Of a stretch of 17,828 nucleotides of DNA, positions 2,692-10,940 are shown piece after piece. This stretch comes from Chloroflexota bacterium. GTDB lineage: Bacteria > Chloroflexota > Limnocylindria > Limnocylindrales > CSP1-4. The notes beneath the pieces were generated by a model. It ran no database searches. It was not told the origin of the DNA and saw only the letters and a list, made by a program, of their open reading frames with translations. Each line of letters starts with the position of its first letter. Position 1 is the stretch's first letter. The stretch is from positions 1 to 17,828 of the forward strand of contig JACCQX010000183.1 in assembly GCA_013813905.1 (NCBI GenBank). The letters run 5' to 3'. The position numbers and the translations under genes are program-made.

Positions 2692-3457
2692 CGGTGGTCC
2701 CTCCGTGGATCAGCGTGCCGATCGGCTCGCCCAGGGCCGCACGCCGGATATTGTCCGGTCGGTTCATATCGAAGACGACGATGGGCAGGTCATTGTCCAT
2801 GCACAGCGAGACGGCCGTCGAGTCGAGGACAGCCAGCCGGTCGGCCAGGACCTGCCCATAGGTCAGGTGCTCATGCCTTGTCGCGTCCGGGTCGAGAGCT
2901 GGATCCGCGGTGTAGACGCCGTCCACCTTGGTGGCCTTCAGAAGCACCTCCGCGCCGACCTCGACGGCACGCAGGGCGGCCGCCGTGTCGGTGGTGAAAT
3001 ACGGATTGCCGGTGCCCGCCGCCAGGATGACCACGCGGCCCTTCTCGAGATGCCGCATGGCACGCCGCCGGATGTAGGGCTCGGCCACTTCGTTCATGGC
3101 GATGGCGGACATGACGCGAGTCGGTACGTCGGCCTTCTCCAGCGCGTCCTGCAGCGCCAGAGCATTCATGACCGTGGCCAGCATGCCCATGAAGTCGGCC
3201 GTGGCGCGCTCCATGCCCTTGGCCGAGGCAGCCAGGCCGCGGAAGATGTTGCCACCGCCGACCACGACCGCCACCTCCACACCCATCGAGCGGACCTGCC
3301 CGAGCTGACGGGCGATGAAGACACAGACATCGGGATCCACGCCGTACGAGCGCGTCCCCAGCAGCGCCTCACCCGAGATCTTGAGCAGGATGCGGCCGTA
3401 GCGCGCCGATCCGGGGGAGGCCTCCTCGACCGTGGCGGCCGCGAGGGCCTCCGTCAC
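2681..3457 (-). CDS. pyrH: Uridylate (UMP) kinase
   Basis: UMP kinase phosphorylates UMP to UDP for pyrimidine nucleotide and, indirectly, cell wall precursor synthesis. The 258-residue protein shows the amino-acid-kinase fold motifs: [12 protein letters not shown] at about 23-34, [11 protein letters not shown] near 61-71, [13 protein letters not shown] near 144-156 and [13 protein letters not shown] shortly after. The reading frame stays open further upstream into tsf, but I place the start at GTG 3457 because it overlaps the tsf stop as GTGA and because GGGGAGGAG at 3460-3468 is a near-ideal Shine-Dalgarno. This leaves about 18 residues before the kinase fold, slightly longer than in E. coli. 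It overlaps frr by 11 bases. Confidence 0.96.
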
Positions 3458-4062
3458 AGCTCCTCCCCGAGGGCGTAGCGCACGAAGCGGCGCACGCGGA
3501 TGTTCTCGCCGATGCGTGCCACGGCGTCGGTGATCAACTGTCCGACGGTCTGGTCCGTGTCGCGGAAGGGCTGCTCGTAGAGCACGATCTGCTGTTGCCA
3601 CTTGCGCAGCTGTCCGTCGACGATCTTCTGTTGGATCTCAGCCGGCTTGGCCGCGAGGGCTTCGTCGGCGAGGAGCTCGGCGCGCTTGGCCTCCAGCACC
3701 GGGACAGGGATAGCCTCCACCGTGGGGTACTCGGCAGCGAGGCCGGCGACCTGCATGGCCAGATCCCGCACCAGCTTCTGGAAGTCGTCGGTGCGCGCCA
3801 CGAAGTCAGTCTCGCAGTTGACCTCGATGAGGACGCCCAGTCGGCCGCCGGCATGGATGTAAGAGGACACCACGCCTTCTCGCGCGTCTCGACCGGCCTT
3901 CTTGGCGGCCGCTGCCTGTCCGCGCTCGCGCAGCAGGTTCACGGCAGCATCGAGGTCACCGCCGGTCTCTTCCAGTGCGCGCTTGCAGTCCATGAAACCG
4001 GCACCGGTCCGCTCGCGCAGCTCCTTGACCTGCGCGGGCTTGATGAGGATCTGATCGACCAT
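3454..4062 (-). CDS. tsf: Elongation factor Ts (short form)
   Basis: EF-Ts is the guanine nucleotide exchange factor of EF-Tu. The N-terminal UBA-like domain carries the family signature around [13 protein letters not shown] (18-30). The second signature, [11 protein letters not shown], is at 80-90, in the core domain that contacts EF-Tu. At 202 residues it is the compact type known from Thermus, cyanobacteria and Chloroflexota, and lacks the larger two-subdomain dimerisation module of E. coli EF-Ts (283 residues). The ATG at 4062 has only a weak, distant AGAGGT upstream. The stop overlaps the pyrH GTG. The gene follows rpsB after 66 bases, the usual pairing for S2 and EF-Ts. Confidence 0.97.
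3460..3468 (-). promoter_or_regulatory. Ribosome binding site of pyrH
   Basis: GGGGAGGAG is read on the minus strand inside the last codons of tsf. It ends 2 bases before the GTG at 3457; the GGAGG core is 4 bases away. It decides the pyrH start against longer in-frame possibilities. Confidence 0.75.
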
Positions 4063-7060: not shown

Positions 7061-7069
7061 AGTATAGCA
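7061..7069 (-). promoter_or_regulatory. Candidate rplS promoter (extended -10)
   Basis: The minus strand reads TGCTATACT: a TGn extension and a -10 hexamer TATACT with 5 of 6 consensus bases, only 5 bases after the trmD stop. The position 17 bases upstream has no -35 match. The predicted RNA start is about 7054, 100 bases before rplS. The rest of the trmD-rplS gap shows only a 7-bp inverted repeat (7027-7033 with 7055-7061). Confidence 0.5.
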
Positions 7070-8692: not shown

Positions 8693-8947
8693 TCAGCGGA
8701 CGTCGGGGAGGATGCCCACGCGCCGAAAGAGGCGCGCGACCGTCTCGGACGGCTGGGCACCGTTGCCCAGCCACTTGGTCGCCTTCTCTGCGTCCACTTC
8801 GATCTCGACCGGATCCTGGCGCGGGTCGTAATGGCCGAGGATGTCGAGCGAGCGACCGTCTCGAGCGCTTCGACTGTCGGAGACGACGAAGCGGTAGGTG
8901 GGCTTCTTGGTCGCACCGACGCGGGTGAGACGGATGCGGACTGCCAC
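8693..8947 (-). CDS. rpsP: 30S ribosomal protein S16 (bS16)
   Basis: bS16 is an early-binding 30S assembly protein. The 84-residue product begins with AVRIRLTRVGATKKPTYRFVVSD-type sequence (RIRLTRVGATKKP at residues 4-16), has the SRSARDGRSLDILGHYDP block, and ends in the AEKATKWLGNGAQPSETVARLFRR pattern. The frame is open upstream, but homology starts at the GTG at 8947, and AGGAGG at 8959-8964 supports it, although 11 bases is a longish spacing. The gene heads the rpsP-khpA-rimM-trmD block. Upstream lie a hairpin and a repeat array rather than ffh itself. Confidence 0.96.
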   Translation of the reverse strand: MAVRIRLTRVGATKKPTYRFVVSDSRSARDGRSLDILGHYDPRQDPVEIEVDAEKATKWLGNGAQPSETVARLFRRVGILPDVR

Positions 8948-8958
8948 GGGCGAAGGGA

Positions 8959-8964
8959 CCTCCT
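8959..8964 (-). promoter_or_regulatory. Ribosome binding site of rpsP
   Basis: A perfect AGGAGG, 11 bases before the GTG at 8947. It is the strongest Shine-Dalgarno in the window and selects this start over the longer open frame. Confidence 0.75.
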
Positions 8965-8972
8965 GTCGATGG

Positions 8973-8996
8973 AAAGGGCGCGAGCGGCCGGCGCCC
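8973..8996 (-). terminator. Hairpin with short T-run upstream of rpsP
   Basis: GGGCGC (8991-8996) pairs with GCGCCC (8976-8981) around a 9-base loop and is followed by TTTCC (T at 8973-8975). It looks like a weak intrinsic terminator or attenuator, just after the 20-bp repeat array and 8 bases before the rpsP Shine-Dalgarno. Confidence 0.4.
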
Positions 8997-9000
8997 AGGC

Positions 9001-9100
9001 GCAAGGTTACTCGACGACGGGAAAGGTTACTCGACGAGGGGAAACATCACTTGACGAGGCGCCGAGCTACTCGACCAGGGATAGCATCACTCGACGTAGA
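9001..9100 (-). repeat. Five tandem 20-bp repeats, each with a stop codon
   Basis: Five adjoining units, 9001-9020, 9021-9040, 9041-9060, 9061-9080 and 9081-9100, have exactly 20-bp spacing. On the transcribed strand they share the core GTCRAGT (positions 6-12 of the unit, R being A only in the third plus-strand unit) and mostly begin with CCNTCGTCGAGT. Each core runs into a stop: TGA at 9087-9089 (the true stop of the DUF3352-like gene), TAG at 9067-9069, TGA at 9047-9049, TAA at 9027-9029 and TAA at 9007-9009. The first unit in the transcript covers the last codons of the gene; the other four are intergenic. Flanking 20-mers on both sides do not match. Confidence 0.9.
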
Positions 9101-10940
9101 GCAGGGCGCGCAGCGACATGTCCCCTTCTGTGACGGTGCCGCTCATGATGAAGCGGTCGAACGCCTCGAGATATGGCTTGACATCCCGGTCGTACTCGGC
9201 TCGTCCTTCGTCCGGGATCAGCGCCTCCATGAACCCTCGGAGCGCCGCCAGGTCGACGTACGCGACGCCACTGTTGGTCGCCCCACCGGCAGCTTCGAGA
9301 GCCGTCGCGTAGTCCGCGTTGCCGGCCAGCGAGTCGGACTCGCTCCGCTGCATCGCACCCGACACGAAGTCGCCCAGGCCCAGGTAGAAGATGTCGTCAT
9401 GGATGCCGTAGCTCAGGGACGGCTCGAAGGGCAGGTCGTCGGGGAGAGGGCTGGATGGGTCGCTCTTGGCCGCGATGGTTGTCACCAATGATCCGGCGAT
9501 GTCCTCCTCCTCGATCGAGAAGGGCACTTCGCCGAACGCGGACGCGGCACGGATGGCCGTGGTCAGGCGCTCGACGCGTTGCGCCGCGACGGTGGCATCG
9601 GTGACCGTGGCGGCGAGGCCGACGGTGAGCTGATCGCCATCGACCGCCACGCTGACCGCGGCGTCCTCCATCCAGAGCAGGAAGTCCTCCACGGGAACGC
9701 CCAGGAAGGCCTCGACCTGCTCAAGCTGTGCCGGCGGAGCACCGAGCGAGGTCACCAACCCCTCCACGACCTTCGAGATGCCCTCGCCCACGTCCCGTGT
9801 CTCCGAATAGACGGCCGACGTGCTGGACATGCGCGCAGCCAGCGACGTGCTGCGGGAGGGTGACAGGGGAGTGTCCACTCCGGCACTCACCAGCATGTCG
9901 AGGACCATGCGGTCATCTTCGACGCGCAGCGACCCGGCCACCGCCTCGGGCAGCTGCTCGAGGGCCTCGCTCAAGATCTCCGAGGTGGTGCCATCGAGCT
10001 CGCTGGATCCTGCCTCCACAAGGGTGCGGTACACGCTCAGGGTCAGGTAGACCGCGCCCAGTCGCTCGGGGGGCAGGCTTGCGATGCGCTCCTGGAAGAT
10101 GGCCGAGCCGGCGAGGGACGGCTGCGCGCCACTGCGCACCTCCAGGGCGGCCACGAGATGCTCCGGCGTCAGGGCGAACAGCAGCGACTCGTCGGTGACG
10201 GCATACGAGAAGGCCTGCTCGGGGCCCGACTCCGGCTGGTAGGTGACGATGGTGGCTGAGCCGTGGCTGCTCTCGGTGAAGGTCGCGCCTGGCGCGTCAG
10301 CGCGCAGGCGTGCCAGGAAAGCGTCCAGGGCGGCTCTATCGGCCACGCTGAGTGCGCCCACGAAGGGCGGGATGCTCTCCCGACTCGCGCCGAGCCCGTC
10401 CGGGCCGCTCGACATCTCGGGCACTTCCGTCACGCCCAGCGCGAACTCGCCCTCGAACCATGGCTTGATGTCGCCCGTGTAGGTGTACCGGTCCTGGCTC
10501 GCCTCGCGAGTGAGCCTGTCCAGCGTGTCATTGACCTTGAGGTCGAAGGCGGCGGGATCGGCGAAACCGGGGAACCTGCCCATGAACGAGACCAGGTTCT
10601 CGCGCTGGTCACCGGGCAGATCGAGCCGGCTCTCCAGGTAGGCCACGGTGTCGGGCGGCAGGAAGGTAGGTCCCAGCGCGGCAGGGGTACGGCTGCCGGT
10701 GGCCAGCATGGCCAGTCCGACACCGGTGACCACGACCAGGACCGTGGCCAGCAGCGCGACGATCCAGCGCACGGGCTTCGGTCGCGAGACGGGGGTCACC
10801 GGTGGAAGCGGCGCTGCCGCCTCCTGGGGAAGCGGCGCGCCGGCCGTTACGGGCGGGACCGACCCCGGTGCGGCGGGCGGCTCCTGTGGTGGCTGCCAGG
10901 GAGACGTGGACGGTTCTCGATCGGAAGGCGGATAGCTCAT
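9087..10940 (-). CDS. DUF3352-like single-pass membrane protein
   Basis: This is a 617-residue protein of unknown function. Residues 1-57 are Pro-, Ala- and Ser-rich and probably cytoplasmic; one membrane segment is at about 59-80 (WIVALLATVLVVVTGVGLAM). The rest is a large, probably extracytoplasmic domain beginning with PPDTVAYLESRLDLPGDQ at about 94-111, then RFPGFADP and DIKPWFEGEFALGV. This pattern resembles DUF3352 proteins, frequent in Chloroflexota and cyanobacteria; I recognise it from memory, not by search. No catalytic motif is visible. ATG 10940 has no Shine-Dalgarno; TAACAT (10985-10990) upstream could be a -10 box. The gene lies between ffh and rpsP, where most genomes have nothing or unrelated small genes. 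The stop codon falls in a repeat array. Confidence 0.85.
   Translation of the reverse strand: MSYPPSDREPSTSPWQPPQEPPAAPGSVPPVTAGAPLPQEAAAPLPPVTPVSRPKPVRWIVALLATVLVVVTGVGLAMLATGSRTPAALGPTFLPPDTVAYLESRLDLPGDQRENLVSFMGRFPGFADPAAFDLKVNDTLDRLTREASQDRYTYTGDIKPWFEGEFALGVTEVPEMSSGPDGLGASRESIPPFVGALSVADRAALDAFLARLRADAPGATFTESSHGSATIVTYQPESGPEQAFSYAVTDESLLFALTPEHLVAALEVRSGAQPSLAGSAIFQERIASLPPERLGAVYLTLSVYRTLVEAGSSELDGTTSEILSEALEQLPEAVAGSLRVEDDRMVLDMLVSAGVDTPLSPSRSTSLAARMSSTSAVYSETRDVGEGISKVVEGLVTSLGAPPAQLEQVEAFLGVPVEDFLLWMEDAAVSVAVDGDQLTVGLAATVTDATVAAQRVERLTTAIRAASAFGEVPFSIEEEDIAGSLVTTIAAKSDPSSPLPDDLPFEPSLSYGIHDDIFYLGLGDFVSGAMQRSESDSLAGNADYATALEAAGGATNSGVAYVDLAALRGFMEALIPDEGRAEYDRDVKPYLEAFDRFIMSGTVTEGDMSLRALLYVE

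Follow-up and report, generated by a model that had tools for sequence, protein, structure and literature searches.

A tandem array of five 20-bp units is present across the stop codon of a DUF3352 gene, next to rpsP, in the window (the whole stretch of DNA analysed, 17,828 nucleotides). The array is probably an ordinary tandem expansion, specific to the lineage of this species, for which no evolved function of the array as such would be needed. When the end of a gene is tandemly duplicated, stop codons in all frames come for free, and the resulting pattern can be mistaken for design.

Structure of the array and its counterparts in related genomes

The genes on either side agree with those named in the sequence-only reading. 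Upstream lies a DUF3352 gene of 617 aa in the ORF list (9087..10940, minus strand; Pfam PF11832, E 9e-21), which ends ...LLYVE-TGA within the first unit, and downstream rpsP, encoding ribosomal protein S16 (8693..8947, minus strand, GTG start at 8947; PF00886, E 4.6e-22), with the Shine-Dalgarno-like sequence AGGAGGT at 8958..8964 on the same strand. A literature search found no paper naming DUF3352. In the same-genus relative G001 (locus L136, contig C11), the ffh frame apparently runs without a stop into DUF3352, with 646 further codons in an open frame of 1150 aa, for which a fusion or a sequence error is possible.

Cutting the array region into 20-nt units gave five head-to-tail units on the minus strand at 9095-8996, a slight correction to the originally proposed 9100-9001, and each of them has the GTC-RAG-stop context which had been attributed to every unit. 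Unit 1 (9076..9095) reads GTCGAG-TGA-TGCTATCCCTG, its stop beginning at 9089 and being the present stop of the DUF3352 gene; unit 2 (9056..9075) reads GTCGAG-TAG-CTCGGCGCCTC, with the stop from 9069, and unit 3 (9036..9055) GTCAAG-TGA-TGTTTCCCCTC, with the stop from 9049. Unit 4 (9016..9035; GTCGAG-TAA-CCTTTCCCGTC, stop from 9029) and unit 5 (8996..9015; GTCGAG-TAA-CCTTGCGCCTG, stop from 9009) both contain GTCGAG-TAACCTT. From unit 1 to unit 5 the stops are TGA, TAG, TGA, TAA and TAA, in frames 0, 2, 1, 0 and 2, and the cover of all three frames by stops at these five positions, as first described, is borne out. A stop is present in every copy because the copied unit spans it, while the three-frame phasing arises because 20 is not a multiple of 3. 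The near-palindrome CTCGTCGAG, also reported earlier, can be read directly from the sequence as an exact match at the junction of units 3 and 4, but nowhere else.

The head-to-tail arrangement exceeds chance: at a shift of 20 the sequence matches itself at 53 of 80 positions, and when the gap was shuffled 500 times with its composition preserved, no shuffle (0 of 500) did as well at any shift between 8 and 40. Tandem Repeats Finder also reported two stretches with period 20, namely 9003-9044 (score 77) and 9009-9059 (score 67). Minisatellite or VNTR type loci are a class of bacterial intergenic tandem repeats, and the array resembles them in its head-to-tail units of tens of bases, in the divergence of these units (pairwise identity 11-16 of 20) and in a copy number which differs between related genomes. 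It differs from them in that its unit spans the stop codon of a gene, each copy being stop-bearing. Nothing on stop-spanning arrays was found in the literature, as far as its partly available texts extend.

The genome under study (G000) is a member of the same Chloroflexi family as CSP1-4. Comparison was based on a genus set of five genomes, one per species and G000 included. All four same-genus relatives have a single unit, RAG-TAA-CCT, 52-63 bp before rpsP; the DUF3352 gene ends in GTCGAG-TAA-CCT in G001, G002 and G004 and in CTGAAG-TAA-CCT in G003, and GTCGAGTAACCT is common to unit 5 and G001, G002 and G004. The gap from the DUF3352 stop to rpsP is 139 bp in the genome under study, as against 60 bp in G001, 52 in G002, 53 in G004 and 63 in G003. 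The excess is 80 bp, that is, removal of four 20-bp units leaves 59 bp, a gap of the relatives' size. Unit 5 can be taken as the ancestral gene end, because this last unit has the TAACCT context of the relatives' single copy at the same distance from rpsP. Absence of the array from close relatives would, according to the sequence-only reading, tell against its interpretation; it is indeed absent from four of four same-genus genomes, although none of these is close, their DUF3352 identity to the gene studied being 53% (G002), 52% (G001), 48% (G004) and 38% (G003). A scan of named genome contigs for the DUF3352 locus gave 14 loci, the best at 51%, in a collection from which records very near the window may be missing. 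The junction is readable in 30 genomes, counting the one under study, and of these only the latter and G025, of another genus, have the stop context copied within 40 nt. The DUF3352 end of G025 (L143, minus strand, stop near 3968) contains a 13-bp duplication holding TAG.

The duplication suggested from the beginning as the origin is well supported by the single unit in the relatives and by their gaps, shorter by about four units. The ancestral end, V-E-stop with RAG-TAA-CCT, would have stood some 59 bp ahead of rpsP, and in the species' own lineage slipped-strand replication or unequal recombination would have added four further copies of it, each 20 bp on. The gene would now terminate in the first unit, the old end persisting in unit 5 as DNA 59 bp before rpsP, and the units, which do differ from each other, would have diverged after duplication. 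We infer slippage, this order of events and the lack of a function of the array.

Selection on the repeated core and other readings of the array

The conservation of the core against the flanks of the units had been taken as a hint of selection. The most parsimonious tree of the units has 16 changes, only 1 of them in the first seven columns, or 3 in the first nine against 13 in the other eleven. With the core fixed beforehand, the permutation P is 0.003 for seven columns and 0.012 for nine (0.010 and 0.028 under a multinomial null). Nevertheless, the core was chosen after looking at the sequence, and when all circular windows were scanned the values rose to 0.045 and 0.148 by permutation and to 0.115 and 0.264 under the multinomial null. 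Neutral array growth was simulated in four settings of 1,500 accepted runs each, with unit 1 constrained or free. Five stops combined with no more than one change in the seven-column core appeared in 0.0007-0.0033 of the runs, and five stops irrespective of the core in 0.18-0.21. This rarity counts against a purely neutral history, tempered by the post hoc choice of the core. The hint is weak, though not gone, after the best-window scan, yet unusual in the fixed-core neutral simulation, and core conservation beyond neutral expectation is suggestive only.

That the array is an artefact of assembly would be conceivable, the genome being fragmented (62% complete, in 198 contigs, of which the window is C71), but its units mutually differ at 4-9 of 20 positions, differences which misassembly of one unit would not create, and the probability of an artefact is practically negligible. 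A translation fail-safe, where backup stops in all frames would shield rpsP from ribosomes reading through DUF3352, had also been put forward, and at this locus every frame does meet a stop no more than 60 nt past the first one. However, the next in-frame stop is the full 60 nt away, and an in-frame stop soon after the primary one is not kept across relatives: the gap contains an in-frame backup stop in 0 of 29, and stops in all three frames in 0 of 29, their gaps being shorter (11-117 bp). The three-frame phasing is a by-product of the 20-bp unit. Additional (tandem) stop codons are described as fail-safe signals in yeasts in PMC1088959, while the systematic study PMC6764699 reports no compelling evidence of selection for additional stops in eubacteria. 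The array shares with such tandem stops the presence of extra stops downstream of the real one, and differs in that its stops ride on a repeated unit, in different frames, with 29 relatives devoid of an in-frame one. Fail-safe stops were rejected by comparison with the relatives, and such a role is extremely improbable.

A role in the structure or stability of the mRNA is not supported, the fold of the array region being no more stable than that of shuffles (z -0.22). In a further reading of this kind, an RNA element would have AGUAACCU paired with the Shine-Dalgarno sequence of rpsP, coupling rpsP translation to DUF3352 termination. The consensus fold of the five genus sequences does predict ACCU paired with AGGU, and in G002 the mean probability of Shine-Dalgarno pairing reaches 0.87, but the four ACCU/AGGU pairs are invariant and give no covariation, the pairing probability is 0.00-0.02 in the other four sequences, and shuffling of the 8-mer gave no clear rise of Shine-Dalgarno accessibility in any sequence (in G002, 22 of 200 shuffles were as low). 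The features of a structured RNA leader are lacking in the fold, in Rfam (no match at gathering scores) and in the pairing, found in one of five sequences. Sequestration by AACCU, to which the consensus fold had pointed, thus failed in four of five sequences, and an element of this kind is very unlikely. Of the interpretation first given, duplication is supported and fail-safe stops and mRNA structure are not, whereas the hint of selection, although weak, is not dismissed.

An 8-mer shared by the genus as a candidate cis element

The 8-mer AGTAACCT lies at 9004..9011 on the minus strand, in unit 5, with a second copy in unit 4 at 9024-9031, and is found at the DUF3352-rpsP junction in five of five genus genomes. 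In their alignment it is identical, whereas the remainder of the gap as far as AGGAGGT mostly varies. The present stop is now TGA while units 4 and 5 keep AGTAACCT, which indicates a constraint other than termination, and the shared 8-mer means that unit 5, at least, may be functional. It is possible, if rather doubtful, that the rpsP operon has a cis element in AGTAACCT, for example a binding site or a hexamer of the -10 type (TANNNT), which would overlap the DUF3352 stop in the relatives and partly account for the maintenance of the array. Duplication would then have amplified AGTAACCT and parted the element from the stop, the array being partly retained through units 4 and 5. As regards origin this overlaps with the lineage-specific expansion, and the confidence placed in each is not exclusive of the other.

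The distribution of the 8-mer speaks in its favour. AGTAACCT followed by AGGAGGT after 24-54 nt occurs once in each of the five genus genomes, at this junction, and in 0 of 102 other genomes of the family, the reversed control giving 3 matches in all 107. AGTAACCT is scarce, occurring twice in G000 (both in the array), once in G002, twice in G001, three times in G003 and four times in G004. This scarcity is nevertheless unspecific, with 12 matches in the five genomes against 47 for the reversed 8-mer (G000 1, G002 5, G001 0, G003 22, G004 19), and the six other sites, in G001, G003 and G004, have no obvious common setting. A AGTAACCT regulon was discarded on reading these six loci, their settings being mixed.

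The stop context itself is also uncommon: by approximate gene calls, TAA ends 14 of 472 genes in the genome under study and TAACCT is found at 0 of 472. Moreover, by eye, no other gene among the 18 compared in the window retains its stop and the three bases after it in all of G000-G003, save where coding sequence of the next gene follows, the compared ends being extensions of tblastn matches, some of which, with a large extension, are not the true stop. TAACCT at the junction extends to G012, of another genus, but G013 and G014 lack it, although they are nearer in Ffh identity (75 and 76%) than is G012 (73%). TAACCT also occurs at other genes, namely at 5 of 109 approximately called genes in stretches from eight relatives, where TAA ends 13 of 109, and at the rplS-like match of G012. 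Furthermore, TAACCT is not kept in units 1-3, and the sample is small, five or six sequences related by descent.

With respect to a promoter, the scan for a sigma-70 type promoter of rpsP (-35/-10, 16-18 nt spacing) gave 0 at 8800-9300; there is no -35-like hexamer, and TANNNT alone is found in units 4 and 5. No terminator was found either, and both a sigma-70 promoter and a terminator were set aside. Short conserved promoter-like hexamers do occur in the region, in fact, as TGCTATACT is present at rplS in G000, G001, G002 and G003. In the window this extended -10-like sequence lies at 7061-7069, minus strand, in the trmD-rplS gap. Nine tRNA upstream regions, inspected by eye without statistics, were set aside as a line of evidence.

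The fuller proposal, which is unlikely, is that AGTAACCT, conserved in the genus, is an element acting on the rpsP operon and overlapping the stop of DUF3352, the 20-bp expansion having copied both and let them part, and that the array is a multi-site version of the element. The gene would end with TGA in unit 1, and the element would remain in units 4 and 5, as far from rpsP as it was ancestrally. The candidate AGTAACCT element is the part of the locus worth follow-up; if real, it would be a natural case of a joint stop and control sequence split by duplication, beside a ribosomal operon and in an uncultured lineage.

Repeats at other gene ends in the genome and the family

A genome-wide search for the unit, which the sequence-only reading had proposed, found the paired unit confined to the array (4 matches, all inside it). 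When the whole array region was compared with its own genome, only the self-match appeared at E 0.001, and four more weak matches appeared at E 0.05-1; a dispersed repeat was rejected. The pattern, which covers GTCRAGTRR pairs only, so that arrays with other units would escape it, was present in 4 of 107 family genomes (the array, and one match each in G088, G014 and G124), with 3 matches for the reversed control as well. In G088, two GTCRAG-stop copies have a spacing of 19 bp, and a 421-aa ORF ends at the first of them; in G124, a two-copy 19-bp repeat lies just past an ORF end; in G014 (L090, around 1501-1550, contig C319), GTCAAG, a core which the unit in the window shares, is repeated five times in 10-bp steps between ORFs, with no stops in that phase. 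In-phase stops never exceed two in these three matches, which show that such repeats close to the ends of genes also exist outside the genome under study.

Tandem repeats are common in this genome: 61 stretches with 395,787 bases in all gave 119 entries scoring at least 40, and 16 of these entries outscore the array, 14 of these 16 with a period divisible by 3. There is, in addition, no excess of repeats at stop codons over shifted positions, either here or in the relatives' stretches. Of 472 genes, 11 have a repeat anchored at the stop codon, where nine shifted positions give 10-19; for the relatives the figures are 3 of 109 genes and 2-7. Copies of the stop context numbered 8 per 348 genes vs 4-8 at seven shifted positions, and in the relatives 2 per 109 vs 1-5. 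The gene totals (348, 472 and 109) are approximate, coming from a simple caller using GC by codon position which made a wrong-strand call at window positions 2705-3478, and the 472-gene sample represents 546,066 of the 1,320,688 bases of the genome.

A second stop-spanning array was found in the same genome (L126:3445-3503, contig C51), with four units of 14 bp, each with TGA. This genome thus has at least two stop-spanning expansions, a point in favour of an origin by mutation. The L126 array bridges an aspartokinase-like gene (amino acid kinase and ACT domains) and a semialdehyde dehydrogenase-like gene (lysC-asd), its last unit containing the ATG of the latter. It is absent from G003, the only one of the four genus relatives in which the first gene is well matched, where at the lysC-asd junction the stop apparently overlaps the next start (GTGA).
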